From an uncultured Aeromonas sp. (GTDB lineage Bacteria > Pseudomonadota > Gammaproteobacteria > Enterobacterales > Aeromonadaceae), in assembly GCA_945957575.1 (NCBI GenBank), contig CAMFLW010000011.1, positions 1-46,614 of the forward strand: a stretch of 46,614 nt of DNA, read 5' to 3'. A model generated the notes under the pieces. That model saw only the letters and a list, made by a program, of their open reading frames with translations. It did not search any database and was not told the DNA's origin. This document shows, piece after piece, positions 17,050 through 42,353 of the stretch. The position numbers were made by a program, and so were the translations under genes. Positions within the stretch are counted from its first letter, which is position 1. Each line of letters begins with the position of its first letter.

Positions 17050-18177
17050 ATGGGGCAACAAAAACCGTTGGGCGGGGCCGGTCTGCGCGGCCAAAGCGCA
17101 GGGGAGACCAGTATCTGTACCGTGGGCAAGAGCGGCACCGGTCTCACCTATCGCGGTTACGACATCAAGGAGCTGGCCGATAGCGCCCAGTTCGAGGAGG
17201 TCGCCTATCTGCTGCTCAAGGGAGAATTGCCGAGTAACCAGCAACTGGCCGACTACAAACGCGAGCTGCGCCGCTTGCGCACGTTGCCGGCGGCGCTGCT
17301 GGAGGTGCTGGAACGCATTCCCGCCGATGCCCACCCCATGGATGTGCTGCGCACCGGCTGCTCCATGCTCGGCGATCTGGAGCCGGAAGAGGGTTTCGAG
17401 CATGAGCATGAAGTGGCGGATCGGCTGCTGGCTGCCTTCCCGGGGATCCTCATCTACTGGTACAAGTTCAGTCACGAGGGAGTTCGCATCGCCCTCGACA
17501 GCAACGAGGAGTGTATCGGTGGCCACTTTCTGGCGCTGCTGCATCAGAAAGCGCCGAGCGAGCTGGAGCGCCGGGTGATGCATGTCTCGCTCATCCTCTA
17601 CGCCGAGCATGAGTTTAACGCTTCCACCTTTGCGGCGCGGGTCTGCGCCTCGACCCTTTCCGACATGTTCTCCTGCATCACCGCCGCCATCGGCACCCTG
17701 CGTGGCCCGCTCCACGGCGGCGCCAACGAGGCGGCCATGGCGATGATCGAAGATTGGCAAGACGAGACGCAGGCAAGGCGCGAACTGCTGGCCAAGCTGG
17801 CGGCCAAGGAGAAGATCATGGGCTTTGGCCACGCCATCTACCGCACTTCTGATCCGCGTAACGTCATCATCAAGGAGTGGTCAGCCAAGCTTGCCGAGGC
17901 GGTGGGGGATGATCGTCTCTATCGCGTCTCCTGCGAGGCGGAGAAGGTGATGTGGGAAGAAAAAGAGCTCTTTCCCAACGCCGACTTCTTCCACGCCAGT
18001 GCCTATCACTACATGGGGATCCCGACCAAGCTGTTCACCCCCATCTTCGTCTGCTCGCGGGTCACCGGCTGGTGCGCCCACGTAATGGAGCAGCGCGAGC
18101 ACAACCGGATCATCCGTCCGAGCGCCGATTATGTCGGCCCGGCCCCCCGTCACTTTGTCTCTCTACAACAACGATAA
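17050..18177 (+). CDS. prpC: 2-methylcitrate synthase
   Basis: Condenses propionyl-CoA with oxaloacetate. It is a citrate synthase-fold protein of 375 residues with the catalytic residues His222 (PLHGGANEA), His261 ([13 protein letters not shown]) and Asp312 ([11 protein letters not shown]). The pattern NADFFHAS and the short length are those of methylcitrate rather than hexameric citrate synthases. AGGAGG sits six bases before the ATG and overlaps the prpB stop, so the two are coupled. Confidence 0.95.
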
Positions 18178-18187
18178 GGAAGTCACG

Positions 18188-19633
18188 ATGTCCGCCAACG
18201 TCGACGTCAACCACAGACCAGACCCCGATCAGGTGCTGGTCGATATTGCCGATTATGTCTGCAACCACCCCATTACCAGCAAGGCGGCCCTCGACACCGC
18301 CCGCTACTGCCTGATGGATACGCTCGGCTGTGGCCTGCTGGCCCTGCGCTTCCCCGAGTGCACCAAGCACCTTGGCCCCATCGTCCCCGGTACACTGGTA
18401 CCCCACGGTGCCCGGGTACCCGGTACCCAGCTCTGCCTCGATCCGGTCAAGGCAGCCTGGGACATCGGTGCCATCATCCGCTGGCTCGATTACAACGACA
18501 CCTGGCTGGCCGCCGAGTGGGGTCACCCCTCCGACAATCTGGGCGGTATTCTGGCCACTGCCGACTGGCTCTCCCGTACTCGCGTGGCCGAGGGCAAGGT
18601 GCCGCTCACCATGGCCGATGTGCTGGTAGCCATGGTCAAAGCCCACGAAATTCAGGGGGTGCTGGCGCTGGAGAACTCCTTCAATCGGGTCGGTCTCGAT
18701 CACGTGGTACTGGTCAAGGTTGCCAGCACCGCCGTGGTGACTCATATGCTGGGCGGCACCCGCGATCAGGTGATCGATGCGGTCTCCCAGGCCTGGGTCG
18801 ATGGCCAGAGCCTGCGGACCTACCGTCATGCCCCCAATGCAGGGTCGCGCAAGAGCTGGGCGGCGGGGGATGCCACCTCTCGCGCAGTGCGCCTCGCCCT
18901 TATCACCATGAGCGGCGAGATGGGCTATCCCGGTGTGCTGAGCGCCCCCAAGTGGGGTTTCTACGACGTGCTGTTCAAGGGCAACCAGTTCGCCCTCCAT
19001 CAGGGGTACGGCAGCTATGTGATGGAGAACGTGCTGTTCAAGATCTCCTATCCCGCCGAGTTTCATGCCCAGACCGCGGTGGAGTGCGCCATGAAGCTGC
19101 ATGGGCAGGTGAAGGGGCGGCTCGACGAGATAGACCGTATCGAGCTCACCACCCATGAGTCGGCCATTCGCATCATCAGCAAGGTCGGCGCCCTCAACAA
19201 CCCGGCCGATCGGGATCACTGCCTGCAGTACATGGTGGCGGTGCCGCTCATCTTCGGTCGCCTCATCGCCGAGGATTACGAGGACGATGTCGCCGCCGAT
19301 CCCCGCATCGACGCGCTACGCGACAAGATGGTGGTACAGGAGGACAAGCGCTACAGCCGTGAATATCTGGAGGCTGACAAGCGTTCCATTGCCAACGCCA
19401 TCCAGATCTTCTTCAAGGACGGTACTCACACCGCCAAGGTGGAGGTGGAGTATCCGGTCGGTCATCGTCGCCGCCGGGAGGAGGGGATCCCGCTGCTGGT
19501 GGAGAAATTCCAGCACAATCTGGCCACCCGCTTCCCGGCCAAACGGGTCAGCGACATTCTGGCCCTCTGTCAGGACGGGCCGCGGCTTGCCGCCACCCCG
19601 GTACACGCCTTTATGGATCTGCTGGTGATCTGA
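18188..19633 (+). CDS. prpD: 2-methylcitrate dehydratase
   Basis: MmgE/PrpD-family enzyme that dehydrates 2-methylcitrate to 2-methylaconitate. The 481-residue protein includes [18 protein letters not shown] and [15 protein letters not shown], typical of PrpD. The start is ATG 18188, seven bases after AAGGA; the open frame upstream overlaps prpC and lacks a ribosome site. This is the last gene of prpBCD. No prpE (propionyl-CoA synthetase), acnD/prpF or prpR adjoins the cluster, so propionyl-CoA must come from elsewhere, for example odd-chain lipid or amino acid breakdown. Confidence 0.95.
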
Positions 19634-19664
19634 CCGATATCTACCGGCGAACAGCGATAAACGA

Positions 19665-19690
19665 AAAGCGGGCCCATCGGCCCGCTTTGT
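19665..19690 (+). terminator. Terminator after prpD
   Basis: Stem AAAGCGGGCC against GGCCCGCTTT with a CATC loop, followed by a short interrupted T tract (GTCGT). It lies 31 bases after the prpD stop. Confidence 0.7.
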
Positions 19691-19882
19691 CGTCTGGCAA
19701 CGGTTACCTGGCAACTTTTGCCCAATCAGACGTTGCTGCTTCTGTCTGTTACCAACGATCGGGCCTTGCGTTGTTGTTGTGTCACCACCACGGCAACGAT
19801 CCGCTTCCCGCGCGCTGTTTCATTGACGCAACAATGACCAATTTCAACTCGATTTATTTGCAACAATCTGCGTCTATCGAAC

Positions 19883-20611
19883 TTAAGCCAGCACGCTGCT
19901 ATCACCGCTAAAAAGCGCCGTCATGATCGCCGTCTCGCGACTGGCGATGGTCTCGAGAAACTCGTTGGCACGCCCCATCTGGTGACACACCTGATACCCT
20001 CGCTCGACAAAGGAGAAGAGCTCGCCAAGCCCCGCCAGATGGGCGGGCCCTGACACCAGCTTGAGGGTCGCCCCCAGCAGCGGCTTTCTCGCCAGTCTGT
20101 CCAGCGTCATGCCAAGCTCGGTCACCAATGCAATTTGATGTTCACGGCGTGCCTGTTCACCTACGGCACGGTAGGCGATGGTGTAGTGGTCCGGCGTGAT
20201 GGGATCAATGCCATCAATGCGCCGCAGCGCCACCACCATCAGGTAGTCCAGCTCTTCGGAGAGAGCATCAAGTTCGATCGCCTGCGCCAGCACCTTGAGG
20301 CCGGACTCCGGCAACAGCCGCTCGGCGGTCGGCATCACTCGCATCACATCCGCATCGCGCCGAGCGCAATCCCCCGGGCCATAGAGATCGGTCAGAAAAA
20401 ACTCGGCGGCAGGGCCGTAGCGGTCACTCTCCAGCAGATCACGATGGGTTCGCCCCAACCGGTCGGCCTGCCACTGGCGTAGCCGATCCCGATCCTGCTG
20501 ATCCGCCGGGTGAGCACGCATCTGCTCGCGCAAGGCTGCAACCCGCTTGAGCTGGCAGTAGAGCCGACCCAGGGTGCTATCGTCGTCATGGGCATGTTCT
20601 TGATGGGTCAT
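19883..20611 (-). CDS. Conserved protein of unknown function
   Basis: A 242-residue, mostly helical, charged cytoplasmic protein without signal peptide or membrane segment. The segment RYGPAAEFFLTDLYGPGDCARRD around residue 65-90 belongs to a family I recognise from other proteobacteria only as uncharacterised (FFLxDLYGP type). The N-terminal 15 residues are His- and Asp-rich. It is convergent with prpD, and its upstream region is shared with the divergent PHA-system gene; whether it acts in lipid storage is unknown. Confidence 0.75.
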   Translation of the reverse strand: MTHQEHAHDDDSTLGRLYCQLKRVAALREQMRAHPADQQDRDRLRQWQADRLGRTHRDLLESDRYGPAAEFFLTDLYGPGDCARRDADVMRVMPTAERLLPESGLKVLAQAIELDALSEELDYLMVVALRRIDGIDPITPDHYTIAYRAVGEQARREHQIALVTELGMTLDRLARKPLLGATLKLVSGPAHLAGLGELFSFVERGYQVCHQMGRANEFLETIASRETAIMTALFSGDSSVLA

Positions 20612-20870
20612 CTACCGCTCTCTGGCCTTGGGCCCATTGATGGGGATTGAGTGATTCGAAGATACAAGTGAATGAAAAACAAGCAGCTTTTGCTTAAGGT
20701 TCTGTGCCAAGTGTAGCGCGCACAGGGGAGGGAATAAATGCCATGCCCCGCTGATGGCCTGCATCCCGCTCGACTCTGTTAAGTGAGTCCCATTTATGTG
20801 AACGGCCCTTTCACTTGTTGTGAACATGTGTTTAATATCAATAAATATCTTCTGACCCAGAGTAACAACC

Positions 20871-21203
20871 ATGTTCTTCAACTCGCTCGCTGGCAACAGC
20901 GCACTCTCTATCATTCAGATCAGCCGGCAGCATCCGTTGGGACTGGCCGCGGCCCGCCTCGCGGCCGAAGCCATTGCTGCGGACATGAGCGAGAGCTATC
21001 AACTCGATTGCGAATGGGCAGATGAAGAGGAGACCGAGCTACACTTTCGCGGCTCAGGGGTACATGGCACTCTCACCCTGGACGAAGATACCCTGGAACT
21101 GGAAGTGCATCTTGGTTTGATGCTGTTGCCGGTACGCAGCGTACTGGAGCAAGAGATCCTCGATTATGTCGATAATCGCTTACCTTGCCCCAAACATGTT
21201 TGA
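20871..21203 (+). CDS. Polyhydroxyalkanoic acid system family protein
   Basis: A 110-residue protein matching the small PHA granule-region family: ISRQHPLGLAAARLAAEAIAAD at the N-terminus, then alternating strands with YQLDCEWADEE and GTLTLDEDTLELEVHLG and an amphipathic end (EILDYVDNRL). Members are found near phasins and PHA synthases and are presumed to bind storage granules; the biochemical role is not established. The 255 bases after it contain no gene and lead into the acyltransferase gene. Confidence 0.8.
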   Translation: MFFNSLAGNSALSIIQISRQHPLGLAAARLAAEAIAADMSESYQLDCEWADEEETELHFRGSGVHGTLTLDEDTLELEVHLGLMLLPVRSVLEQEILDYVDNRLPCPKHV

Positions 21204-21458
21204 AACATATCGTGGCACAGGAATTAAATAAATCAGCGGTGAAGGATGACTGTTGGAAATAAGTTGGCAAGCCATATCGTCTGCCGAATTAATTATCCGG
21301 CGAGGTCTCTACTCTATTTTTTAAGTGATCTTTCATCTTTGTTTCATATTTCGGGGCGGCACTCATTCATGTCATCTTGATTGCATCACGCCTTCATCAG
21401 GCTATGAGGGCAGGAGTAACTTGCCGCCTCGGTAAATTCATTTTGTAGGGAAACAACC

Positions 21459-22889
21459 ATGCCACTGAGTGAATTTATCTCCTGCGTCGATACCGCCTGG
21501 TTACGCATGGACAGACCCAACAACCTGATGCAGATCATCGGCGTCCTGATGTTTGAAGGGGAGCTTGATGAAACGCGTTTGCGGGCCGGATTACGCCACA
21601 CCATTTCGGTGCAACCTCGCTTCCACCAGCGGGCCGTGTTGGAAGGGGGCTCCTACTACTGGCGCCATGACCCCGATTTCGATCTCGATCAGCACCTCAA
21701 GCGAGTGATCCTGCCGGGTAACGCAGGCAAACTCGAGCTGGAGAAGCTGGTGGCCGATCTCGCCTCGACACCGCTCAACCACCAGCGCCCCCTGTGGGAT
21801 ATGCACCTGACCGACACTTCGCTGGGTGGTCAGGCGCTGGTGGTGCGCATTCACCACGCCATGGGCGACGGCTTCTCGCTGGTGCGGGCCATGCTGACCA
21901 TGATGGATAACACCCCGGAAGGGGTGCCGCGACCACCGTCACCGGAGCCACTGGATGACAGCGATGACGAGGATGAAGAGGATTGCCACCAGGGAAGCCG
22001 TCTGGTGCGGGCTGGTCTCAAGCTGACCGGGAACCTCTGGTCCAAATATGTCGAAGTGGTTACCCATCCCACCAAGGTGGTGGATTACCTCAAGACCGGA
22101 CGGGATGTGGCGAGCGAGCTGTGTAATATCGCTACCCTCAGTGATGATTCCCCCTGCCGCCTGCGAGGCAAGACCACCAGCACCAAGCGGGTGGCATGGT
22201 CGGAGCAAATTGATCTGCCGGATATCAAGGCAGTGGGCAAGGTACTGGGCTGCTCGGTCAACGATCTGCTGATCGCCGCCACCGCAGGGGCGTTTCGCCA
22301 CTACCTGCAGGAGAAGGGGGATGATGCCAACAAGGTCAAGATCCGCGCCCTGGTGCCAGTCAATATGCGTGCACCGGACGATGAGGGGGCGCTGGGCAAT
22401 CGCTTCGGGCTGGTGGCCCTGGACTTGCCACTGGATGTTGAACACCCGTTACAGCGGCTCTATACCGTACGTGACCGGATGCAGGCGCTGCGCACCTCGC
22501 TGCAACCCGTGGTAGTGCTCAACTTGTTACATGCCCTTGGCATGGCACCCAATGCGGTGCAGCAGCAGGCAGTCGAGCTGCTCACGGCCAAGGCCAGCGC
22601 GGTGATCACCAATGTGCCTGGCCCGCAGCAGACCCTCTATCTGGCTGGAGCAAAATTGCGTCAGCCGCTGTTCTGGGTGCCGCAATCGGGGGATATCGGC
22701 GTCGGCGTCTCCATCCTCTCTTACGATCACAAGGTGCAGCTTGGCCTTATCACCGACAAGAAGCTGGTTCCGGATCCGGATCGGGTGGTCGAGCGGTTTG
22801 CAGTGGAATTCGAGCAACTGCTGTTGCTGGTGCTGATGGAGCCGGAGCTGTTGTTTGACCCCAACGGGCTGGATGCGCTGCTCGGTTGA
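21459..22889 (+). CDS. Wax ester synthase/diacylglycerol acyltransferase (WS/DGAT)
   Basis: Esterifies fatty alcohols or diacylglycerol with acyl-CoA to form wax esters or triacylglycerol. The 476-residue protein has the acyltransferase active-site motif HHAMGDG (HHxxxDG, residues 132-138), and later NDLLIAATAGAF, RALVPVNMR and the NVPGP motif near residue 385, in the family order. An acidic low-complexity insert (DDSDDEDEEDC, about residues 166-176) separates the halves. It is a single gene closed by a strong terminator; the fatty acyl-CoA reductase at 26562 would supply its alcohol substrate. Confidence 0.93.
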   Translation: MPLSEFISCVDTAWLRMDRPNNLMQIIGVLMFEGELDETRLRAGLRHTISVQPRFHQRAVLEGGSYYWRHDPDFDLDQHLKRVILPGNAGKLELEKLVADLASTPLNHQRPLWDMHLTDTSLGGQALVVRIHHAMGDGFSLVRAMLTMMDNTPEGVPRPPSPEPLDDSDDEDEEDCHQGSRLVRAGLKLTGNLWSKYVEVVTHPTKVVDYLKTGRDVASELCNIATLSDDSPCRLRGKTTSTKRVAWSEQIDLPDIKAVGKVLGCSVNDLLIAATAGAFRHYLQEKGDDANKVKIRALVPVNMRAPDDEGALGNRFGLVALDLPLDVEHPLQRLYTVRDRMQALRTSLQPVVVLNLLHALGMAPNAVQQQAVELLTAKASAVITNVPGPQQTLYLAGAKLRQPLFWVPQSGDIGVGVSILSYDHKVQLGLITDKKLVPDPDRVVERFAVEFEQLLLLVLMEPELLFDPNGLDALLG

Positions 22890-22944
22890 GCGTGCACTTA
22901 AGCGACCGGTGACGGCGTAGCCAACCGGTCAGCTCCCCTCATAA

Positions 22945-22976
22945 AAGAGGCCAACCCGCGGGTTGGCCTCTTGTTT
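22945..22976. terminator. Bidirectional terminator between convergent genes
   Basis: Thirteen-base stem, AAGAGGCCAACCC against GGGTTGGCCTCTT, followed by GTTTT on the plus strand and preceded by TATAAAA-like sequence that gives a T-run on the minus strand. It serves the WS/DGAT gene and the convergent TPR gene. Confidence 0.88.
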
Positions 22977-23004
22977 TACTACCTCTTAGTGGCATTAGTG
23001 GCGG

Positions 23005-23793
23005 TTAATCCTCAAGCTCTTCGCGCGCCGCCTCCACATCGAGGCGTTCCATGGCATCCATGGGTTCGCACTCGGCCGCTTCGGCATAGAGGGCTTCGGC
23101 CGCTTTCAGGCGGCTCTTGCCGTGCAGCATCACCTGAGCGTTGGCGTACTCCATGCGGGCGATAGCGGAGTCGGGGATCAGCGCCAGCGCCTCCTTGAAG
23201 TGACGCTCGGACTCCTCCTTCTTGGCGCCATAGGTGAGGCCGCCGATCATGGCCCCCAGCTTGTCGACGATCTCCGCATGCCAGGCGCCAAAGGCAATAT
23301 GGGCCTCGGCGTGATCTGGCGCCAGCTCCAGCGCCTTCTCAAGGCTTGCCTTGATCTTGTCGCCAATACCTTGCGAGAGAGCCTTGGAGATGGAGATGAC
23401 CTGACTGTATCGACCGAGTGCCAGCGCGTGGAAGTACCAGGCGTTGGCGTTCTTGGGCTGACGCTTTTGCAGCTTCTCGGCATGGCTGGCCGCCCGCTCG
23501 AAGGCGGAGCGCTTGGCATACTTGTCTTCCAGCAGATAGCTGGCGTGGATCACCAGCGCCTTGTTTGCCACATTGAGGCCTGCCTCACCGGCCGCTTCGC
23601 CAAGGGCGACGGCCTGGGCAAAATCCCCGGCATGATAGGCCCGCCAGGCATCCTGTACCTGCTCATCCTCGGGCCAGGGTTCGGCATCCCCCTGATGGAG
23701 ACGATCCCAGTTGTCCGCCAGCTTCTGGCCTGCATAGTCATAGGCCGCATCCGCGTAGGGGAAGGGGACAAATTCGAGTTGTGAAGTGGTCAT
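23005..23793 (-). CDS. TPR-repeat protein
   Basis: A 262-residue soluble protein made of helical repeats; several segments have the TPR pattern (AWYFHALALGRYSQ, ASLEKALELAPDHAEAHIAFGAWHAE, HFKEALALIPDSAIARMEYANA). The start is ATG 23793, behind AGGGAGA; the open frame extends 26 codons further but without a ribosome site. It is downstream of and on the same strand as the tetR/patatin pair (25-base gap), so probably in one transcript. TPR proteins are scaffolds; the partner is unknown. Confidence 0.82.
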   Translation of the reverse strand: MTTSQLEFVPFPYADAAYDYAGQKLADNWDRLHQGDAEPWPEDEQVQDAWRAYHAGDFAQAVALGEAAGEAGLNVANKALVIHASYLLEDKYAKRSAFERAASHAEKLQKRQPKNANAWYFHALALGRYSQVISISKALSQGIGDKIKASLEKALELAPDHAEAHIAFGAWHAEIVDKLGAMIGGLTYGAKKEESERHFKEALALIPDSAIARMEYANAQVMLHGKSRLKAAEALYAEAAECEPMDAMERLDVEAAREELED

Positions 23794-23818
23794 GCTTGTT
23801 CTCCCTGTAGCATGTGAA

Positions 23819-24460
23819 TCAAACCTGGTCGGTGTAGTGGTGGGCGAGGGCGCCCAGATGAGCGCGAGCATCGGCCCGCAAATAGGGTGCGACCAGCTGC
23901 ATCACCTGAAAGACGCCGAGGGCGATATCGGCGTCCGCCTTGGGATGCAGTGCCCGCTGATAAGAGATCCAGAATGTGCCAACCAGCGCCACATTGGCCG
24001 CCAGCGTGCGCATCTGTTGCGCCGTGCCCTCCATCAGCCCGACCGTTTGCAGATGGTTGCAAATGGCGATGGCGGTCTGCTCCTTGCGGCGCAGCAGGGC
24101 GGAAAAGCGCTGTTCCACCTGATGATAACCACTCATCAGGGTCGCGATATCGTAGTAGAGGAAACGGTACTGCCAGATGGCTTCAAACATCAGGTGGAGA
24201 AAGAGCCAGATATCTTCTGGCTCATCGGACGGGGTGCTGACCGCCTCCAGCAGGCGATCCATCTGCTGTTCAAATTCGCAGAACAGGGCGTTGACGATCT
24301 CCTCCTTGTTGTGGAAGTGGTAGTAGAGATTGCCCTGGCTGATCTCCATCTCGGCCGCAATGGCCGAGGTGGTGACGCTGGGTTCCCCTTGTCGATTGAA
24401 GCAGGCGAGGGCAGTGGTCAGGATCCGCTCCCGGGTACGACGTTTGGGTTTGCGATCCAT
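23819..24460 (-). CDS. TetR-family transcriptional regulator
   Basis: A 213-residue repressor-type protein. The N-terminal helix-turn-helix (RERILTTALACFNRQG, then TSAIAAEMEISQGNLYYHFHNKEEI) is standard TetR; the C-terminal part carries aromatic residues (IWQYRFLYYDIATLM) that could form a pocket for an acyl ligand, like the DUF of some lipid-sensing TetR proteins. It starts at ATG 24460, behind AAAGGAG, one base after the patatin stop. Likely controls the lipid locus; the operator was not identified. Confidence 0.9.
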   Translation of the reverse strand: MDRKPKRRTRERILTTALACFNRQGEPSVTTSAIAAEMEISQGNLYYHFHNKEEIVNALFCEFEQQMDRLLEAVSTPSDEPEDIWLFLHLMFEAIWQYRFLYYDIATLMSGYHQVEQRFSALLRRKEQTAIAICNHLQTVGLMEGTAQQMRTLAANVALVGTFWISYQRALHPKADADIALGVFQVMQLVAPYLRADARAHLGALAHHYTDQV

Positions 24461-24461
24461 G

Positions 24462-25649
24462 CTACTCCTTTGGTGATGAACGGCGCACGCCGTGGCGATA
24501 GCGTTTGGCAAGCCAGTGCTGCAACTGCTCCAGCGACTTGTCGAGGGCGGCAACCGAGCCAATGCCGGGGGCCAGCAGGGTGCGATCTTCATCGGCCAGT
24601 GCGGCCAGATTGAGCTCGAGGCCATGTTTGGCCAGCACCGGCGCAAGCTCGTCACGACGCTGCCAGAGATCGCGGCGGGTATGCTGGTAAGCGTGCTCGC
24701 AGAGGCGACGACGATCCCGGTAACTGAACACATTGGTGAAGAACATCTCGCCATCGGCAGAAGAGGGCTCAAACAGCAGGGCATCGGCGTCGGGATATTG
24801 GTGTTTGTAGCGATCCATTCCCACATGCATGCGGGAGTGGATGATGGCGCGAAAGGTCTGGGCCAATACCACCGGCAGACCGCTATCCACCAGATTGGTC
24901 GGCGCGCCGGCGGCCATGTCCGCATCATAGGGCACCAGCGGATTGATGCAGAACACCAGATCAGCCCCCTCCTGCAGCGCTACCGAAGCGTGCAGAGTCT
25001 TGATCAGCGCGCCATCGACATAGTAACGCCCGTTAATCAATGAAGGGGGAAAGAGGCCGGGCAGGGCGGCCGACGCCTGTACCGCCGCCGAGATGGGCAC
25101 GTCATCGAGCCCCGGACTGCCGAAGGCGACCGGATGGCCGGTATCGAGTTCGGTGGCGACCACAAACAACCGACTGCGCAGCTGGCGGAAATCGTTGCTA
25201 CGGCCGGGGCGAGAAAAAAACTGGGTCAGGGTGCGATCTACCCCGCGGTTGTCGAACAGTCCGGTCGGAATGGCCTTGGAGAGCCCCTGCAGCGATTCAA
25301 ACAGGCTGCGCTTCCAGGGCGCCGCCAGATAGTAGGTCAGGCTCTGCCACGCCAGCGGCGGGATCGAGGTCAGACGGTCGGCGTATTCACGAAAGGCGGG
25401 GCGCAGCAAGGTGGCCGGGTCAAACATCTCCCCCGAATCATCGCTGAGCAGGATCCGCACCAGCTTAGCCGGCGAGATGCCGTTGGCCAGCGCCGACGCC
25501 ACCACGGCCCCCGAACTGACGCCGACATAGATATCGGCATGGTCAAGGCGCAAGCCACTGATACTGTCAGAGAGGGCAGCGCAGGCACCGATCTCGTAGA
25601 TGCCGCCGAGCGGCCCGCCGCCAGCAAGGGCAATTGCGATGGTACTCAT
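24462..25649 (-). CDS. Patatin-like phospholipase/lipase
   Basis: Serine hydrolase with a Ser-Asp dyad: glycine-rich oxyanion loop GGGPLGG (residues 10-16), nucleophile Ser45 in GVSSG, and Asp in YYVDGALI. No signal peptide, so it acts inside the cell. Patatin proteins hydrolyse acyl esters of phospholipids, triacylglycerol or PHB. The gene is followed after one base by the TetR gene, and is a candidate for mobilising stored neutral lipid. 395 residues. Confidence 0.9.
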   Translation of the reverse strand: MSTIAIALAGGGPLGGIYEIGACAALSDSISGLRLDHADIYVGVSSGAVVASALANGISPAKLVRILLSDDSGEMFDPATLLRPAFREYADRLTSIPPLAWQSLTYYLAAPWKRSLFESLQGLSKAIPTGLFDNRGVDRTLTQFFSRPGRSNDFRQLRSRLFVVATELDTGHPVAFGSPGLDDVPISAAVQASAALPGLFPPSLINGRYYVDGALIKTLHASVALQEGADLVFCINPLVPYDADMAAGAPTNLVDSGLPVVLAQTFRAIIHSRMHVGMDRYKHQYPDADALLFEPSSADGEMFFTNVFSYRDRRRLCEHAYQHTRRDLWQRRDELAPVLAKHGLELNLAALADEDRTLLAPGIGSVAALDKSLEQLQHWLAKRYRHGVRRSSPKE

Positions 25650-25687
25650 AGCGTCGCTTCCCTATCCATGACAGTCTCCATGACAAG

Positions 25688-25715
25688 ACCGGCCCAGCGA
25701 AGGGCATGGGCCGGT
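25688..25715 (-). terminator. Hairpin between phasin and patatin genes
   Basis: Arms ACCGGCCCA and TGGGCCGGT, followed on the minus strand by TCTTGTC. The T-run is poor, so termination after the phasin gene may be partial. Confidence 0.4.
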
Positions 25716-25743
25716 ATCAATCACCTGCCGTCACCACGAGGGA

Positions 25744-26316
25744 TCAGGGCAGGACGCTCTCTGCTTTAGCCTTCACCTCTTTCACCGCATCTTCAGCGGC
25801 GGAGAGGAGATCGGCTGCCTGCTCAACTACGGCCTCTTTAGCCTTGGCTACCGGCGCCTTCTTTACAGGAGGCTTGCGTGCAGCGGGCTTTTTGGCGGCA
25901 GCCGGTTTGGCTTCAGCGGCCGGGGCCTCCTCTTCCTGAGCATCCAGCAACTGCTGCACCACGTCGGTCAGCTCGGCCATGCGCTTGGAGAGCTTGTCGA
26001 TATCCTTGCGGGTAGGGATGCCAAGGCTGGCCACGGCGCGGGCGACGCGATCTTCAAACACCTGCTCCAGACGGCCCCAGGTATTGGCGGTCTTGTCGGT
26101 CACTGCGGCAATCTTCTCATCGGCGCTCTGACGGGTTTTAGCCTGCAATGCTTCCCCTTCCTGCACCAGGGCTTCAAAAATTTTGCCCCCCTCTTCCTGT
26201 GCTTTGGCATAGGCACCCAGACCCGCCAACCAGATCTGCTGGGTAGACTCCTTGATGGTGGAGGTGAGTTGGTTGTCGGTTACTGACCCTGCCAGCGCTT
26301 TCAATTTCTTAGCCAT
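25744..26316 (-). CDS. Phasin with Lys/Pro/Ala-rich tail
   Basis: Granule-associated protein of 190 residues. Residues 1-115 form the helical phasin domain (IWLAGLGAYAKAQEEGGKIFEALVQEGE is diagnostic); after an acidic linker comes a histone H1-like stretch (AAAKKPAARKPPVKKAPVAK), as in Pseudomonas PhaF, which binds both granules and DNA and helps share granules between daughter cells. The start is ATG 26316, behind AAGGAGA. It is divergent from the fatty acyl-CoA reductase gene across a 245-base region. Confidence 0.9.
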   Translation of the reverse strand: MAKKLKALAGSVTDNQLTSTIKESTQQIWLAGLGAYAKAQEEGGKIFEALVQEGEALQAKTRQSADEKIAAVTDKTANTWGRLEQVFEDRVARAVASLGIPTRKDIDKLSKRMAELTDVVQQLLDAQEEEAPAAEAKPAAAKKPAARKPPVKKAPVAKAKEAVVEQAADLLSAAEDAVKEVKAKAESVLP

Positions 26317-26561
26317 GATAGTCTCCTTGATAACGACAGTTAAACGTAATGGCGACAACGACAACTGCAATCCGGTTGTGGCATTACTGATTTTCAACTT
26401 CAGTCTAGGGACAAAAAATAGAGGGTTCTACCTAATTACGAAATAGTGAATGAGTGGAAATAAGGGATGGCTCACGAACCGGCAATCGAATTGCAGATTT
26501 CCATATGATGCGTGATATATCTAACGATAAGTAACAGCCAAATCATTAGCGGAACAATGAC

Positions 26562-28535
26562 ATGAACTATTTTATCACAGGTGGCAGTGGCTTTATCGGG
26601 CGCAGGTTGATCAAAAAATTGCTGGAACGTGCGCCCGAGAATCGGGTCTATTTTTTGATACGCACCGCTCATCAGGATAAATTGCCGGAGTTGTTTGCAT
26701 TCTGGAATGTGGATGAGCAAAGAGCCGTTCCGATCATTGGCGACATGACGCTGCCACTGCTGGGGGTATCGGCCGCCGAGCAGGAACAACTCCGTGGCCA
26801 GATCGATCACATTTTCCATCTCGCTGCCATCTACGATCTCAACGCCAAGGCAGGGATCCAGCAGCAGGTCAACACCGAAGGGACCCGTCAGGCCGTGCAA
26901 CTTGCCGAGCGGCTGGGGGCGGGGCAGTTCCACCACTGCAGTTCCATCGCTGCAGCGGGCCTGTTCGACGGTCTGTTTCGGGAAGACATGTTCGATGAGG
27001 CCGAACACCTCGACATGCCTTACTTCCAGACCAAGCACGAAGCGGAAGGGATTGTGCGCAATGAGTGCACAGTTCCGTGGCGAGTCTACCGCCCGGGCAT
27101 TGTCGTCGGTGACTCCAACACCGGCGAGATGGACAAGATCGACGGCCCTTACTACTTCTTCAAGACCATCCAGAAGCTGCGTCGCCTGTTGCCACCCTGG
27201 ATGCCGGCCATCGGAGTTGAGGGCGGGCGCATCAATATCGTGCCGGTCAACTTCGTGGTCGATGCCATGGCCCATATCGCCCATCAGGAGGGAGAAGAGA
27301 ACCAAACCTTCCACCTGACCGATCCCAATCCGATGCGGGTTGGCGACATGCTCAGTACCTTCTCTCGCGCCGCCCATGCGCCGGAACCAGCCATTCGTAT
27401 CAATGCCTCTTTGTTCAGTTTCATTCCCCGCCATCTGACGGCCATGTTGATGACCATGACGCCGGTGCGCCGCATTCGCGATGCCGCCATCGCCGATCTG
27501 GGGTTGCCCAAGGATATCTTCCGTCTCATCAACTACCCGACCCGTTTTGACAGTCGCGAAACCCAACGTCTGCTCAAAGGTACCGGCATCGAAGTGCCGC
27601 CGCTGCACAGCTACGCCTGGCGGCTGTGGGACTACTGGGAGCGTCACCTCGACCCGGAGCTCTTCATCGATCGCTCCCTGCGTGGTCGGGTCGAGGGCAA
27701 GGTGGTACTGGTGACCGGCGCCACCTCCGGCATTGGCCGCGCCACCGCTCGCAAACTGGCGGGAGCGGGGGCCATCGTGGTGACCATCGCCCGCGATGAG
27801 CAGAAAATTGCCGAAACCCAGGCCGAGTTTGCCGAACTGGGGCTCACCATGCAGGTCTATCAGGGCGATCTCGCCGACCTGGCGCAGGGTGAGGCGATCA
27901 CTCGGCAGATTGTCGAGGAGCACGGCGGTGTGGATATCCTGATCAACAATGCCGGCCGCTCCATCCGCCGATCCATTGAAGACTCCTTCGAGCGATTCCA
28001 CGATCTGGAGCGCACCATGCAACTCAACTATTTCGGGGCGCTCAAGGTGATCATGGGGGTACTGCCCACCATGATTGAGAAGAAGAAGGGGCACATTATC
28101 AACATCTCCTCCATCGGGGTGTTGACCAATGCGCCGCGCTTCTCCGCCTATGTTGCCTCCAAGTCGGCCCTCGATGCCTGGGTGCGGACTGCAGCATCCG
28201 AGTTTGCCGATAAAGGGGTGAGCTTCTCCATCATCAATATGCCGCTGGTGAAAACGCCGATGGTCGCGCCGACCAAGGTGTATGAACAGGTGCCGATGAT
28301 GACACCGGAAGAGGCGGCGGATCTGGTGTGCGATACCATCATCAACAAGCATGTGCGCTTGGCGACTCGCCTCGGGGTATTTGGTCAGGTGGTGCATGCC
28401 CTGGCACCACGGGTTGCCCAGGTGATCATGAATACCAGCTTCCGCACCTTTGCCGATCCCAAGGATGGCGACAAGTCCAAGGCGACCGCCGATCAGGTCG
28501 CCGTCTCGACCCTGATCAAAGGGATCCACTTCTAA
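26562..28535 (+). CDS. Two-domain fatty acyl-CoA reductase (alcohol-forming type)
   Basis: A 657-residue fusion of two NAD(P)H-binding reductase domains. The N-terminal domain has TGGSGFIGR (residues 6-14), HLAAIYD and Tyr154-x-x-x-Lys158 (YFQTK) and resembles acyl-CoA/acyl-carrier thioester reductases. The C-terminal short-chain dehydrogenase has TGATSGIG (from residue 385), NNAGRSIRRS, SSIGVLTNAPRFSAY and Tyr530-x-x-x-Lys534. The overall length and many stretches agree with my recollection of the Marinobacter FAR that reduces acyl-CoA to fatty alcohol. Together with the WS/DGAT gene this gives a complete wax ester route. It has its own terminator. Confidence 0.9.
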   Translation: MNYFITGGSGFIGRRLIKKLLERAPENRVYFLIRTAHQDKLPELFAFWNVDEQRAVPIIGDMTLPLLGVSAAEQEQLRGQIDHIFHLAAIYDLNAKAGIQQQVNTEGTRQAVQLAERLGAGQFHHCSSIAAAGLFDGLFREDMFDEAEHLDMPYFQTKHEAEGIVRNECTVPWRVYRPGIVVGDSNTGEMDKIDGPYYFFKTIQKLRRLLPPWMPAIGVEGGRINIVPVNFVVDAMAHIAHQEGEENQTFHLTDPNPMRVGDMLSTFSRAAHAPEPAIRINASLFSFIPRHLTAMLMTMTPVRRIRDAAIADLGLPKDIFRLINYPTRFDSRETQRLLKGTGIEVPPLHSYAWRLWDYWERHLDPELFIDRSLRGRVEGKVVLVTGATSGIGRATARKLAGAGAIVVTIARDEQKIAETQAEFAELGLTMQVYQGDLADLAQGEAITRQIVEEHGGVDILINNAGRSIRRSIEDSFERFHDLERTMQLNYFGALKVIMGVLPTMIEKKKGHIINISSIGVLTNAPRFSAYVASKSALDAWVRTAASEFADKGVSFSIINMPLVKTPMVAPTKVYEQVPMMTPEEAADLVCDTIINKHVRLATRLGVFGQVVHALAPRVAQVIMNTSFRTFADPKDGDKSKATADQVAVSTLIKGIHF

Positions 28536-28560
28536 CCGGGTGATGCGATATAGAGATCAA

Positions 28561-28590
28561 CAGGGGCCTGAGCAATCAGGCCCCTGTTTT
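28561..28590 (+). terminator. Terminator after fatty acyl-CoA reductase gene
   Basis: Eleven-base perfect stem CAGGGGCCTGA/TCAGGCCCCTG with a GCAA loop and TTTTATTT behind it, between two convergent genes. Confidence 0.93.
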
Positions 28591-28614
28591 ATTTGGTAGC
28601 ACGATTAAGGAGGG

Positions 28615-29490
28615 TCAGACTCGGGACAGCAGATCAAGTAGCAGATCAGTGGTGCGGCGGGAGTAGAGCAGAGAGAGATGGCCGATGGCGGGCAACTCGA
28701 TATCGTCCATGCCCGCCAATCGTTGCCGCTCCTGCGGCATCACCACATTGTCGTGACTGGTGCGCACCGAGATGCCGGGCACGCAAAGCGGCACCGAGGC
28801 AAAACGCTGCAACCAGCCGGAACCGGGTTCCATCTCGCGGGCGTTGGCACCGAGCCCAAGGGCGGCCAGCTGACTGCCCTGATGAGGCGTAGCCAGGGTG
28901 ATCAGGCGCACGACCTTGTCACCACCATGGATAGCCAGATAGTCGCGGCAGACCAGCCCCCCCATGCTGTGACCGACCAGCACCAGCTTGTCAGCCCCGG
29001 TCTGCGCGAGCACATCGTCAATTCGCTTGGCCAGTAGCGGCACCATCTCATCGATATGACCAAATGATGGCATCAGGGTAATGGTGGCGACCACATGGCC
29101 TGCAGCCTCCAGTCGGGCGCGCTGGGTGTGCCAGATCCCGCGACTGCAACCGTAACCATGCACCAGCAATACCGGGCGCAGGCATGGACGCAGCCGATCG
29201 GGCGCCATCAATATAGGCTCGAACGGCAGCAGCCAGGTGAAGGTGTAGAGATAGGCCAGCATCTCCTGCGCCATCATCTTCACCCTGCGCCAGGGGCCGA
29301 TGGCCGGGGAGGGGTAGAAGCGGGTAAACAGCCAGCTGCCGAGCACCACCAGACAACGCAATCCAAGCAGGGCAAACACGACAAACAGCAGGGTCAGCAA
29401 CCAGGGGAGTCCCACGACCAAGTGGGCGATACTCCCGAGGAGCAGCACCTCTACCATCAGCAGGATAAACAGGTGTCGTACGATCGTCAT
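28615..29490 (-). CDS. Membrane-anchored alpha/beta hydrolase (lipase-like)
   Basis: N-terminal hydrophobic segments (LFILLMVEVLLLGSIAHLVV and WLLTLLFVVFALLGL) precede an alpha/beta hydrolase domain with VLLVHGYGCSRGIW (oxyanion region) and the nucleophile elbow GHSMGG; TLATPHQGSQLA and a C-terminal AIGHLSLL (catalytic His) follow as in triacylglycerol lipases. The start is uncertain: ATG 29490 or an upstream TTG at 29526, neither with a clear ribosome site. Convergent with the reductase gene; may degrade the lipid made by this locus. Confidence 0.85.
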   Translation of the reverse strand: MTIVRHLFILLMVEVLLLGSIAHLVVGLPWLLTLLFVVFALLGLRCLVVLGSWLFTRFYPSPAIGPWRRVKMMAQEMLAYLYTFTWLLPFEPILMAPDRLRPCLRPVLLVHGYGCSRGIWHTQRARLEAAGHVVATITLMPSFGHIDEMVPLLAKRIDDVLAQTGADKLVLVGHSMGGLVCRDYLAIHGGDKVVRLITLATPHQGSQLAALGLGANAREMEPGSGWLQRFASVPLCVPGISVRTSHDNVVMPQERQRLAGMDDIELPAIGHLSLLYSRRTTDLLLDLLSRV

Positions 29491-29602
29491 AAGGCCATGA
29501 TCCGACCAGTTAGGCGTGGAAGTCAAATGGCACTTTGAGACGGCTTGATCCAGCGCGGCTTTTGTCGCTAAACCCCGGCGAACTCTTTTCCGGTGAGGTT
29601 AT

Positions 29603-29631
29603 TTGCAATACTGTATATCCATACATATACT
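29603..29631 (+). promoter_or_regulatory. yebG promoter with LexA box
   Basis: -35 TTGCAA (29603-29608) and -10 TATACT (29626-29631) are 17 bases apart. Between and overlapping the -10 lies CTGTATATCCATACAT (29611-29626), one mismatch from the LexA consensus CTGT-N8-ACAG. This makes yebG an SOS gene, as in E. coli. Confidence 0.85.
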
Positions 29632-29660
29632 CTATCCATCATCACCAAGAGGAGGCCATC

Positions 29661-29963: not shown

Positions 29964-30311
29964 TTGCCCAGGCCTGCTATTTCCTCGGGATAAACAGCTT
30001 GTCGCATTCACTTTACTTGCATTTAAAACCACGTTGACGGCTATTTAACCCGAGAATTTTTTAACAACGGTGCATATCCAATGCATAACTGAATAGCGTA
30101 CACCACCGATCGATGTCAGCCAGATTTATGAGTAAATAATGAGCAGTCAGCAGAGCGAGGGTCGTCCAGATCGCTCCCTGTGACCTCAACCAGCAACAAC
30201 AAGAGGCAGTACCAATCCCAACAGAAGCCCCATTCATCTATCACGCGCCCTTTTCTATCGTCTCGGCTCACAGGCTTATATCGATTCATCTCAGCATCAA
30301 CAAGCAACTCC
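29964..30311. other. Non-coding stretch before second orphan recombinase
   Basis: About 350 bases without a convincing gene. It holds a small palindrome TGCAT-ATCCA-ATGCA (30071-30085) and AT-rich sequence around 30050-30140 that may contain the recombinase promoter. If the recombinase starts at the GTG at 30180 instead of 30312, its last part is coding. Confidence 0.5.
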
Positions 30312-31622
30312 ATGACTCAACAACCATTATTCTTGCCGCCCGCCATGCCACTGTTTGACAGCATTATCTATCTGGAAGCAGGCAACCCGCAGGTCAATCA
30401 GTACCTTGCCAACCTCAGCCTAAACGATGTGCCCGATGCCGGACTGGTTTACGAACTGGCGGTCGACTGGCTGCTGGAGCAGCGCAACAGCGAAAACAAC
30501 TACAAAACCTATCGCAGCGAGCTGACCACCTTTTTGCACTGGTGCTTTCGCGAGGCTGCCATCAGCCCGAAAGATCTCACTCGCCGCATCATGATCCGCT
30601 ATCTCGACTACTGTCAGTCGCCCCCTGAGGAGTTGATCGCCTATCGCAACGTGGCACAGTTTGTCCTCGACAAGGAGTGGGGGGAACGCTTGCCCAATCC
30701 GCAATGGCGTCCGTTTTTGGGCAAACGGGAACTGGGTCGCACCTTGCCCTATCGCCTGAGCGAGCAGGCGATGAAGACCAAACTCGCCATCTTGTCGGCC
30801 TTCTTCCAATTCCTGATCCAGGAGGAGTACATGGACAGGAATCCCGCTCTGCTACTGCAGCGGGTCAAAAGGCCGCAGCAGCAGGAGGCCGATGATCAGG
30901 TGCAGGCCTTCAGCGAGTTGCAGTGGTCATATGTGATGCAGGCCGCCGATACGCTTGCCAGCGACCACCCGGAGCAGCACGAGCGCAGCCGTTTTCTCAC
31001 CATCCTGATGTACGCCTGTTATCTACGGATCTCGGAAGTCGCCGCTAGGCCGGGTTTTACGCCGGTAATGGGGCAATTCCGCCGGGATCGCAAAACCGGT
31101 GTCTGGGGCTACTTTATTCCGCAAAGCAAGGGGGGCAAACGACGTACTGTGGCGGTCTCCCGGGCGCTGTTGGCGGCACTCGAACGATACCGCCGCTTCC
31201 TAGGTCTCTCTCCCTTGCCGACACCGGACGAACAGACACCGCTGTTCGTTCGCCATAAAGCGGCTGCACACGGCCGCGAACAGGGCGAACTCAACGCCAA
31301 CCTCGGTATTCGCCAGTTACGGGATTTGATCATGGTGATCATCGGTAAAGGGGCCGAATTGGCGGAGCAAGATGGCTTTGCCCAGGATGCAGCCGAAATG
31401 CGACAACTCTCTCCCCATGCGATCCGCCACACCGGGATCACCCATGACATCAACCTGCATGGACGGCCGCTTTCCCATGTACAGGCCGATGCCGGGCATG
31501 ACAGCATCGACACCACCTCGAAATACCTGCACACCAGCAACAGCGAACGACATGAAAGCGCCCAGCAAAAGCCGCTGGATCGATTGCACCAACAAGTGAG
31601 AGATAAGCCTTCAACCAACTAG
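30312..31622 (+). CDS. Second orphan tyrosine recombinase/integrase
   Basis: Site-specific recombinase with complete catalytic set: Arg in CYLRISEVA, HAIRHTGIT (His-x-x-Arg), His in DAGHDSIDTT and Tyr in SKYLHTS. The N-terminal region (YKTYRSELTTFLHWCF) is the core-binding domain. The start is unsure: ATG 30312 gives 436 residues beginning MTQQPLFLPP; the frame is open back to a GTG at 30180 with a Ser/Thr-rich leader unlike the rest. Not similar in detail to the recombinase at 8914. No mobile-element genes adjoin it, so its substrate is unknown. Confidence 0.87.
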   Translation: MTQQPLFLPPAMPLFDSIIYLEAGNPQVNQYLANLSLNDVPDAGLVYELAVDWLLEQRNSENNYKTYRSELTTFLHWCFREAAISPKDLTRRIMIRYLDYCQSPPEELIAYRNVAQFVLDKEWGERLPNPQWRPFLGKRELGRTLPYRLSEQAMKTKLAILSAFFQFLIQEEYMDRNPALLLQRVKRPQQQEADDQVQAFSELQWSYVMQAADTLASDHPEQHERSRFLTILMYACYLRISEVAARPGFTPVMGQFRRDRKTGVWGYFIPQSKGGKRRTVAVSRALLAALERYRRFLGLSPLPTPDEQTPLFVRHKAAAHGREQGELNANLGIRQLRDLIMVIIGKGAELAEQDGFAQDAAEMRQLSPHAIRHTGITHDINLHGRPLSHVQADAGHDSIDTTSKYLHTSNSERHESAQQKPLDRLHQQVRDKPSTN

Positions 31623-39925: not shown

Positions 39926-40177
39926 ATGACCTACTTTAGCCAACAAAACCTTGATTCGCCTGCTCTCATAGAGCGCAAGGTCTATTGGCAGGCAGAGCCA
40001 ACCGGCGATTATTCCGCTTGTGTGGCTGGTCAGGTCGAGATGTTTCGTGATCTGCATGAGCTGCGGGTCTATCTGTCGATGACGTACCCCGATACCGTGT
40101 TCGAGCTGGTCGAAGTGACCGAGGACACTTGGCAGGGTTTTTATGATCAGGGAGTCTTTTTTGATGACTGGTCATAA
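39926..40177 (+). CDS. Small phage early protein of unknown function
   Basis: An 83-residue acidic protein (MTYFSQQNLDSPALIERK..., many Asp, Glu and aromatic residues), no signal peptide or membrane segment. It is the first gene after the operators and overlaps the replication initiator, so it is likely co-expressed with it. I do not recognise the family. ATG 39926 lacks a strong ribosome site. Confidence 0.65.
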   Translation: MTYFSQQNLDSPALIERKVYWQAEPTGDYSACVAGQVEMFRDLHELRVYLSMTYPDTVFELVEVTEDTWQGFYDQGVFFDDWS

Positions 40178-41699
40178 CCCCGTTAACGCCATGATGCCGA
40201 TAAATAGCGTTATCGGCACCAAAACCTTGATCGACTATCTGTCGTTCACGTGGGCACCTGTCGAGTTGATCCAGATGAAAGAGCTTGCCAAGCAAGGCGC
40301 ACTGCTCAAAGCCATTCCGCGCTTTGATACCAAGGTAAAAGCTCTGCAAGCGGCTATTTCTGAGCCTCCTGTCGAGGGGCTGCGTTACCTGTGGAAGCGT
40401 CCTGTTGGCTTCGCTCCTCTCGCCCACTTTGACAAGGTGACTGACCGTCTGTGTGACAAGGCCGAACGGCTGGGGGTCTCCCCTACCCCGACTGTCGGTT
40501 ATGACAAGACTACCGAGCGGTTGAGCCTTCAGGGTGTGCCCAAGTCCCCTTCCCCTGTCGTTACCTTGTCCATGACAGAGATGATGGAACGTGCATTGCA
40601 CTCCGGTTACAAGGCCCGTGCCGACATTCGCAAGGAATTGAAGGCGGTCTGTTCCTCCCTGCTCAAGTTCTCACAGTTTGAAGTGGTCGAGGGTGCCAAG
40701 TATTGGGAAGCCTACAACGATTTGATCGACTGCTATGGGGTGCAATTTCTCGATGCCCTGTGCTGCTCTGAGCTTGAATTGTGGCTTGAAGAACTCAACA
40801 CCAAGATCGGGGTGCCTATTCCTGAGCCTCGTTTCACAATGCGCCCTCGCCGCTCCGGTCTGCATGGGTATGCCAATTCTGCTGATCTGCTGTGTGATGG
40901 TCTCCCCTGCGGTCTGATTGGTTGGGGTGCTGCCAACCATGGTTGCATGGTTAGTTTTTCTGGTGTGGGCTGTGCCGCCCTCGATATGCAAGCGTTGCAC
41001 TCCGTTATCTCTAACATGCCATCCGTCCGTATCACTCGTGTGGATTTGGCGCTTGATGACTACACAGGCGAAGTGATCAGTTATCAGGGGGCCATTGATG
41101 GCGCTCAAGCGGGGGAGTTTCATCCCGAGCGGGGCCGCGCTCCGGCGTGGATGAAAATTGAATCCGGTGAATTTGTTATTCCCGAGATTGCCAAGGGCAT
41201 TTCTAAGCGTTTCGGTATGGTGCCGACTAAAGGTTGTTCTTTTTATGTTGGCAGTCGGATTAATGGTAAATGCGCTCGGATATATGAGAAGGGTAAACAA
41301 ATGCAATCGGCAGAGAACCCAAATTGGGTGCGTGCCGAAGGCGAGTTGCACAATAAAGATCGGATAATACCGCTCGATGTATTGATTAATCCCGATCCTT
41401 ATTTTGCAGGGATGTATCCGCAGTTTTCCAAGTGGCTGGATGACGTGAAGCAATCGGAGTGCGTTCCGGTACGTGTTACCACCTTTAAAAACAAGTTCAA
41501 GACCAGTCGGGACAATGCTGTTTTCCATATGTCTCGGATGGCGGGCCGCCTTGTTAATTGGTTAGCAAGCATTGAAGGGCTTTCCCCTGCAACGATTGTT
41601 CACCAATTAACAGCGCATCTTAAAGAAGATGATATTCCAGCGCGGTTAAGAATGCCGCTACCGCCCGAGTTTATATCGGGTGAACATTGTTTAGTTTGA
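40143..41699 (+). CDS. Phage replication initiation protein (RstA/pII-like)
   Basis: Rolling-circle initiator that should nick the phage double-stranded form. A 518-residue protein with the replication initiation factor pattern: SVRITRVDLALDDYTG in the middle, then CSFYVGSRINGKCARIYEKGKQ (candidate catalytic Tyr) and NWVRAEGELHNKDR. Two starts are possible: ATG 40143 with AGGG five bases upstream, or ATG 40164 with AGGGAG nine bases upstream (511 residues). It overlaps the previous gene by 35 or 14 bases. Confidence 0.88.
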   Translation: MIRESFLMTGHNPVNAMMPINSVIGTKTLIDYLSFTWAPVELIQMKELAKQGALLKAIPRFDTKVKALQAAISEPPVEGLRYLWKRPVGFAPLAHFDKVTDRLCDKAERLGVSPTPTVGYDKTTERLSLQGVPKSPSPVVTLSMTEMMERALHSGYKARADIRKELKAVCSSLLKFSQFEVVEGAKYWEAYNDLIDCYGVQFLDALCCSELELWLEELNTKIGVPIPEPRFTMRPRRSGLHGYANSADLLCDGLPCGLIGWGAANHGCMVSFSGVGCAALDMQALHSVISNMPSVRITRVDLALDDYTGEVISYQGAIDGAQAGEFHPERGRAPAWMKIESGEFVIPEIAKGISKRFGMVPTKGCSFYVGSRINGKCARIYEKGKQMQSAENPNWVRAEGELHNKDRIIPLDVLINPDPYFAGMYPQFSKWLDDVKQSECVPVRVTTFKNKFKTSRDNAVFHMSRMAGRLVNWLASIEGLSPATIVHQLTAHLKEDDIPARLRMPLPPEFISGEHCLV

Positions 41700-41733
41700 C
41701 CTATAAATCAGGTTCTTCAACGAGGTAAATATT

Positions 41734-42054
41734 ATGTCCCTGCTCACTGCTGTTCTGGTAACTCGCGTTACTCACGGTTATGGTGTGTCCCGCAAATCTG
41801 GCGCTCCGGTGCCTTATGACTTCGCGCAAGTGGAATATCTGGCTCCAGCTAATAACGTGAATAAACCTGAGTGCAATATTCACTCATGGGGTTATGAAGT
41901 TCGCCAACTTGCCCTTCGCAATGACTCTGTGACCATTAAAGAGATGGCCGACTGTCCTAAGTTGGTCGCTATTGATTTGGTGCTTGAAGCGGATCCCCAG
42001 AATCCGACCCGTAACGTGGTTGTTGGTTTCCAGCCTACTAAAAAGCCGGCGTAA
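41734..42054 (+). CDS. Phage ssDNA-binding protein candidate (RstB/pV position)
   Basis: A 106-residue protein (SLLTAVLVTRVTHGYGVSRKSG, EYLAPANNV, WGYEVRQLALRND) that resembles the DUF1293 proteins found after the initiator in Vibrio and related inoviruses. By position it should coat phage ssDNA or assist integration, as RstB does. Ribosome site GAGG lies before ATG 41734. The function is inferred from place and resemblance. Confidence 0.7.
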   Translation: MSLLTAVLVTRVTHGYGVSRKSGAPVPYDFAQVEYLAPANNVNKPECNIHSWGYEVRQLALRNDSVTIKEMADCPKLVAIDLVLEADPQNPTRNVVVGFQPTKKPA

Positions 42055-42114
42055 CCGCCGCGCAACGAGGAGGAGGAGCGAGAGCGCGCAGCGAGCGACG
42101 ACGAGGGCGCGATA

Positions 42115-42348
42115 ATGCTTTGTCTAGATATTACCTCCGAGGGTTATGCCCGTTTATCTGAGGGGGATTCTTGCAGTTATGTCTTGTTGACTTTGCAAGA
42201 ACATAACCGATTAACGGATATATCGAGTTGGTTTGAATTTGATATATCTACTGTAACTGCGGCTTTTGGTTTTGGATTGGCAATTTGGGTTGTCGGTCTT
42301 AAGTTGGGCGCTATTGCCCGTGTTATTGTTGGTGCAAAAAGAGGATAG
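42115..42348 (+). CDS. Small phage membrane protein (possible minor coat)
   Basis: A 77-residue protein with a polar N-terminal half and a C-terminal membrane segment (VTAAFGFGLAIWVVGLKLGAIARVIVG) ending in basic residues. Its place just before the major coat gene corresponds to pVII/pIX-like minor coat genes. A purine-rich stretch with GAGGAGGAG lies 40 bases upstream, but no normal ribosome site is directly before the ATG. Confidence 0.65.
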   Translation: MLCLDITSEGYARLSEGDSCSYVLLTLQEHNRLTDISSWFEFDISTVTAAFGFGLAIWVVGLKLGAIARVIVGAKRG

Positions 42349-42353
42349 ATAAA

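Follow-up and report, generated by a model that had tools for sequence, protein, structure and literature searches.

A candidate nine-gene neutral-lipid storage cassette in Aeromonas and its betaproteobacterial relatives

Among the closest described systems is the pathway of Marinobacter aquaeolei VT8, which pairs the acyl-CoA reductase Maqu_2507, presumably a member of family NF005539, with a wax ester synthase/diacylglycerol acyltransferase (WS/DGAT). The same pair of enzymes, likened here by family and domain content, is encoded on a 46,614-nucleotide stretch of DNA from an uncultured Aeromonas sp. (CAMFLW010000011.1; hereafter, the window). Unlike the Marinobacter pair, the Aeromonas pair lies in a nine-gene cassette with a phasin, lipases, a regulator, and an FFLEELY protein. 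From the sequences compared here, we consider it very probable that this cassette is a self-contained unit for the storage of neutral lipid.

In the excerpt of PMC3522743, the mycobacterial FCR1 (Rv3391), which likewise has about 650 residues and a reductase role in wax ester synthesis, is described as reducing acyl-CoA to alcohol, and its mutants as impaired in wax ester. FCR1 is actinobacterial, and Tsukamurella plasmid homologues were 40-41% identical to the window reductase. According to the excerpt of PMC10351704, sediment scaffolds carry WS/DGAT near a reductase whose identity to Maqu_2507 ranges from 49.5 to 61.9%; two of the scaffolds, both betaproteobacterial, also encode a polyhydroxyalkanoate (PHA)-system protein, and another encodes a phasin. 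Because of these pairings, the parts list of the cassette is already partly known. As far as our searches show, the literature matches listed contain no precedent for the cassette in Aeromonas and its empty sites, for the retention of its phasin in the absence of PHA synthase, for the palindrome, or for the association of FFLEELY with WS/DGAT. The initial annotation knew of no description of wax esters in Aeromonas, and none was reported among those matches; the mentions of Aeromonas in the excerpt of PMC6355812 were one PHA synthase study and its reference.

Enzymes and gene set of the cassette

The window is one contig (C11) of 237 in an assembly of 3.39 Mb in total with a completeness of 80.5%. 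By open reading frames and family searches of the window, nine genes were placed between prpBCD and yebG (Table 1). All the genes named in the initial annotation were recovered as open frames where it had placed them, and the family searches agreed with their identities. The unit itself is wider than had been proposed, comprising nine genes from about 19637 to 29600; a tetratricopeptide repeat (TPR)-like protein inside the original interval and the FFLEELY protein outside it had been left unlisted.

The WS/DGAT, first recognised by its HHAMGDG motif, is an intact gene whose product reached 378 bits for TIGR02946 (cut-off, 310), and both of its domains (PF03007 and PF06974) exceeded their curated cut-offs. 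The motif lies at residue 132, its HHxxxDG pattern was kept in all 56 collected rows, and it aligns with the HH...DG of the related solved structures 6chj and 7nxg. The two-domain architecture and 657-residue length first reported for the reductase were borne out, as the protein is a member of NF005539 along its full length (974 bits, cut-off of 549, spanning residues 1-657 of 657) and carries PF07993 followed by PF00106 in one chain. The nucleotide-binding glycines and YxxxK of both domains were kept in 103 of 103 collected rows. Since the active-site residues were kept in every row of both enzymes, the gene set is more than a product of chance.

Residues 376-657 of the reductase were 46% identical to a 296-residue short-chain dehydrogenase/reductase (SDR) of Acinetobacter, and its 28 matches among solved structures (E values up to 1e-20) were other SDR-type enzymes and MxaA, none of them labelled as a fatty acyl-CoA reductase. 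A grouping with unrelated dehydrogenases, which had been named as evidence that would count against the reading, was not observed: the protein is a full-length member of the two-domain family, and in 35 of the 37 genomes tested its relatives share a locus or a genome with WS/DGAT.

The reductase is predicted to convert fatty acyl-CoA into fatty alcohol. The WS/DGAT would then esterify this alcohol, or diacylglycerol, with another acyl-CoA, yielding wax ester and perhaps triacylglycerol as well. Droplets of this lipid would be coated by the PF05597 phasin, probably together with the PHA_gran_rgn protein, and both lipase-like enzymes, the patatin and the alpha/beta hydrolase, would set the acyl chains free again; a regulator would act at the palindrome at 26418. 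Making, coating, and mobilising neutral lipid, as first suggested, explains the nine genes best and is supported at the sequence level.

Table 1. Positions of the cassette and its features in the window
Feature	Position	Strand	Evidence
Whole cassette	19637..29600	.	Block missing at empty sites, prpD then yebG; borders approximate
FFLEELY motif protein, 242 aa	19883..20611	-	NF047641 234 bits, cut-off 55
PHA_gran_rgn protein, 110 aa	20871..21203	+	PF09650 2.7e-25; TIGR02610 over cut-off
WS/DGAT acyltransferase (wax ester/triacylglycerol synthase), 476 aa	21459..22889	+	PF03007, PF06974, TIGR02946
TPR-like protein, 263 aa	23005..23796	-	Weak TPR_17/TPR_19, below gathering
TetR-family regulator, 213 aa	23819..24460	-	PF13972 2.6e-40, PF00440
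Patatin-like lipase, 395 aa	24462..25649	-	PF01734 1.4e-29; GVSSG and VDGA motifs in translation
Phasin, PF05597 type, 192 aa	25744..26322	-	PF05597 1.3e-35
Imperfect palindrome, candidate operator	26418..26435	+	Best matrix site in window
Two-domain reductase, predicted alcohol-forming (fatty acyl-CoA), 657 aa	26562..28535	+	PF07993 and PF00106, NF005539 full length
Alpha/beta hydrolase, putative lipase or esterase	28615..29490	-	PF00561, PF07819; GHSMGG

Distribution, empty sites, and origin

The genus sample comprised 37 genomes, namely that of the window (G000) and 36 others. Conservation across Aeromonas had been proposed as a check, and the reductase and WS/DGAT were found together in 20 of the 37; the cassette phasin (E value below 1e-76) occurred in the identical 20 genomes, and the WS/DGAT of G004 was present only as a 73-residue fragment at a contig end. 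The FFLEELY gene was found in 11 of the 23 genomes searched for it, exactly the carriers among those 23. All nine genes were present in one order in eight further genomes read across the full stretch (G003, G033, G022, G010, G026, G011, G027, and G019); in G022 (A. diversa), the prpD side was longer, and no yebG match was found within the fetched stretch.

The cassette was missing as one block in four non-carriers (G006, G008, G023, and G028). In these genomes, the DNA homology with the window ends at 19549-19636 and restarts at 29601-29660, and yebG directly follows prpD, their protein matches being 137 to 246 bases apart. The remaining 13 non-carriers had no prpD match at E 1e-100, and the empty-site result is one of four genomes. 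The prpD gene (18131-19633), which lies beside the cassette, was itself found in 19 of 20 carriers versus 4 of 17 non-carriers.

A genus tree was built on RlmL alone, on which the carrier pattern requires at least four changes (mean of 12.6 for shuffled patterns). The RlmL of the window was nearest to that of G033 (100% after rounding), and its reductase was 98% identical to that of G026 and 93% to that of G033. Because the nearest genome by RlmL differs from the nearest by reductase, the cassette may recombine within the genus.

Beyond the genus, one scan of named genomes was made with the reductase alignment, and the best 80 loci, near relatives only, were retained. Six were from Aeromonas, and the other 74 (66 from Betaproteobacteria, 4 from Gammaproteobacteria, and 4 from neither) had identities of 59 to 70%; within the order of the window, three genomes belonging to other families had reductases 51 to 56% identical. 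The betaproteobacterial clusters (Azonexus, Dechloromonas, Crenobacter, Accumulibacter, and Rhodoferax) share most genes of the cassette, arranged and oriented alike, namely WS/DGAT (+), TPR (-), TetR (-), patatin (-), phasin (-), reductase (+), and lipase (-), as in Azonexus L095, Crenobacter L096, and Dechloromonas L097, and Aeromonas nests among them. The reading of the cluster as a storage locus stands, with the amendment that its design is common to Betaproteobacteria and not new.

Counted over all 80 loci, incomplete ones and the six from Aeromonas included, the phasin was found in 73, TetR in 62 (five of these matches spanning fewer than 140 residues), patatin in 56, TPR in 54, WS/DGAT in 37, lipase in 25, and FFLEELY in 23. 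PHA_gran_rgn was found in 7 loci, or in 25 with the low-complexity filter off, and it lies upstream of WS/DGAT in betaproteobacterial loci too (e.g., L096 and L097). In Crenobacter caeni, every gene of the cassette except the lipase had a match. The arrangement in Aeromonas differs in that FFLEELY stands beside WS/DGAT, whereas it is on the reductase side in 15 of the 17 non-Aeromonas loci having it, and in that the block is inserted between prpD and yebG, unlike the betaproteobacterial clusters.

In a quick reductase tree of 97 rows (six named Aeromonas rows dropped as copies), Aeromonas formed one clade with Crenobacter caeni as its sister, followed by the Azonexus/Dechloromonas group and then the Accumulibacter group. 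A careful tree of 35 hand-picked rows gave the same placement, and a single clade of the 11 gammaproteobacterial rows was rejected (p-AU of 0.000149, approximately unbiased test) for a group that is taxonomic but was tested after the quick tree had been seen. The WS/DGAT tree of 50 rows (six named Aeromonas rows dropped and short matches excluded) placed Aeromonas beside the same Betaproteobacteria, with a very distant outgroup and several weak branches. Given the empty sites in four genomes and the foreign phylogeny, the cassette was apparently acquired horizontally from another bacterial group. The donor may have been an unsampled gammaproteobacterium, since the scan kept near relatives only.

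For the wider association of the two enzymes, 37 genomes were hand-chosen from the 80 reductase loci, 13 with WS/DGAT in the locus and 24 without. PF03007 exceeded its cut-off in 35 of the 37, including 22 of the 24 without WS/DGAT nearby, and in none of the 14 controls; the class-wide rate is 21 of 369 (Fisher p about 2e-33, kinship ignored). In G037, the reductase is present and WS/DGAT lies elsewhere in the genome. Looser clusters occur in G046 and G056, from two other families of the order, where reductase, TetR, WS/DGAT, two phasins, and PHA_gran_rgn lie within about 12 kb; their identities to the window are 54-55% (reductase), 33-35% (TetR), and 22-23% (WS/DGAT). A second, single-domain SDR adjoins the G046 cluster (L042, 15543-16394) and is 30% identical to part of the reductase.

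Phasin, FFLEELY protein, and candidate operator

The cassette phasin exceeded the Pfam gathering threshold for PF05597 (122.6 versus 28.8) and narrowly missed the cut-off of TIGR01837 (91.3 versus 94.7). It is kept in genomes in which no PHA synthase was detectable: PhaC, sought as PF07167 (PhaC_N), was not detected in 12 of the 20 carriers, including G000, which is 80.5% complete, and the assemblies of 1 to 3 contigs G021, G029, and G033. The putative species of PhaC-free carriers include A. allosaccharophila, A. lacus, and A. diversa, and those of carriers with PhaC include A. salmonicida and A. piscicola; among non-carriers, 12 of 17 had PhaC. The class III synthase model gave no match over its cut-off in the 20 carriers and 5 PhaC-free non-carriers, weak cross-matches being confined to the 8 carriers with PhaC, and no PHA synthase was recognised in the cassette by family searches of the window.

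The Aeromonas PHA operon, for which the comparison rests on G003 (one operon read of three fetched), is likewise a storage-granule locus with a phasin and has the order phasin-PhaC-MaoC. It is a separate locus, and its phasin of 116 residues belongs to PF09361, whereas that of the cassette belongs to PF05597; no significant similarity was found between the two. Because it is kept without detectable PHA synthase and is unrelated to the phasin of the G003 operon, the cassette phasin more likely coats wax-ester or triacylglycerol droplets, and the simplest view is that it serves the lipid that the cassette makes. A phasin on wax-ester droplets was not found in the excerpts of PMC2667194 and PMC5648520.

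FFLEELY exceeded its cut-off in 11 of 369 genomes of the class, that of the window included, and 9 of these 11 also had WS/DGAT, compared with 12 of the 358 genomes without FFLEELY (p of 4.8e-11, kinship ignored; 6.9e-10 when the genome of the window was removed). The 11 genomes span eight families, seven of which include WS/DGAT. No mention of the FFLEELY name was found in the literature searched.

The phasin and reductase genes diverge from a spacer that contains an 18-bp imperfect palindrome, nTAGAGnnnnCAnACTAA. Of the 72 loci with phasin coordinates, 41 were chosen by hand and searched for it, and it exceeded the 99% shuffle level in 37 of the 41 with a matrix fitted to the same set. With a matrix from the 31 non-Aeromonas sites, the site at 26418 ranked top in the whole window (15.0, the next being 8.6), and refits on six shuffled sets gave 0 to 4 strong sites versus 32. 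Among loci lacking a full local TetR match, the site passed in 8 of 9, the failure being L114; among those having one, it passed in 29 of 32, the failures being L128, L132, and L153. An exclusive link between TetR and the palindrome is unsupported by these counts. The local TetR is the nearest candidate binder, one that the data do not single out. A shared operator upstream of WS/DGAT was not found, the only strong match to the matrix in the window being that at 26418. The regions 21254-21370, upstream of WS/DGAT, and 26413-26464, between phasin and reductase, have short words in common, AAAAAATAGAG and CACTCATTCA among them, and this may be chance.

Competing explanations and neighbouring genes

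Several observations weigh against a self-contained neutral-lipid storage cassette. The co-occurrence in the genus amounts to only about four evolutionary changes on the RlmL tree, and the 37 genomes are for this reason not 37 independent observations; marginal phasin matches (E values of 6.7e-6 to 9.4e-6) were also seen in three non-carriers, G007, G009, and G020. Within the available DNA, some of it incomplete, WS/DGAT was found in only 37 of the 80 reductase loci, and two of the 37 reductase-bearing genomes, both Competibacter-type assemblies, had no WS/DGAT at all. PhaC is present in 8 of the 20 carriers (in two pieces in G019), and the palindrome is independent of the local TetR. The presence of PhaC would suit an accessory PHA locus, in which the phasin, PHA_gran_rgn, and patatin belong with PHA granules and the two lipid enzymes take no part, as would the naming of the phasin and PHA_gran_rgn families after PHA granules and the inclusion among the betaproteobacterial relatives of Accumulibacter, a PHA accumulator. 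We regard this as quite improbable in view of the 12 carriers without a PhaC_N or class III match, three of them in 1 to 3 contigs, the dissimilar PF09361 phasin that the G003 operon has of its own, and the lack of a recognised synthase in the cassette.

A reductase often found without a close WS/DGAT, and in two genomes without any, is more compatible with storage mainly of triacylglycerol or another ester, in which the reductase would detoxify aldehydes or alcohols or supply them for another purpose and wax esters would be minor; the excerpt of PMC6355812 also describes WS/DGAT as making both triacylglycerol and wax ester. The presence of both enzymes in the same 20 of 37 Aeromonas genomes and their proximity in three families of the order make this explanation unlikely, if the strongest of the rivals. 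Mere adjacency of functionally unconnected genes is hardly credible: the five blocks of alternating strand and the unrelated flanks, prpBCD and yebG, would agree with it, and the block-wise absence, the same order in Betaproteobacteria, and the conserved operator-like site argue against it.

For the storage cassette, a further-reaching account is evenly balanced in our judgement, namely that Aeromonas took up a betaproteobacterial nine-gene droplet kit, that the phasin coat has changed over from PHA granules to droplets of wax ester or triacylglycerol and is kept in species without PHA synthase, and that FFLEELY is an unrecognised, widespread component of neutral-lipid storage. If the storage reading is right, these water and fish bacteria can store wax or oil alongside, or in place of, PHA, the phasin becomes a candidate coat of droplets, open to testing in genomes where PHA would not obscure the outcome, and FFLEELY, a family of no assigned function, gains a testable role. 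The presence/absence pattern and the clean empty sites are ready natural controls.

A tyrosine-recombinase-like gene at 30180-31622 was considered as part of the cassette and rejected, as all four empty sites have it too and it belongs to the backbone; the G033 copy is divided between two frames. The 10-mer TTATTTGCAA occurs near both cassette ends (19854-19863 and 29599-29608), which may be chance. Farther along the window, the region 40143-45493 encodes a Rep_trans replication-initiation protein and a Zot-domain protein, a pairing familiar from filamentous phages.

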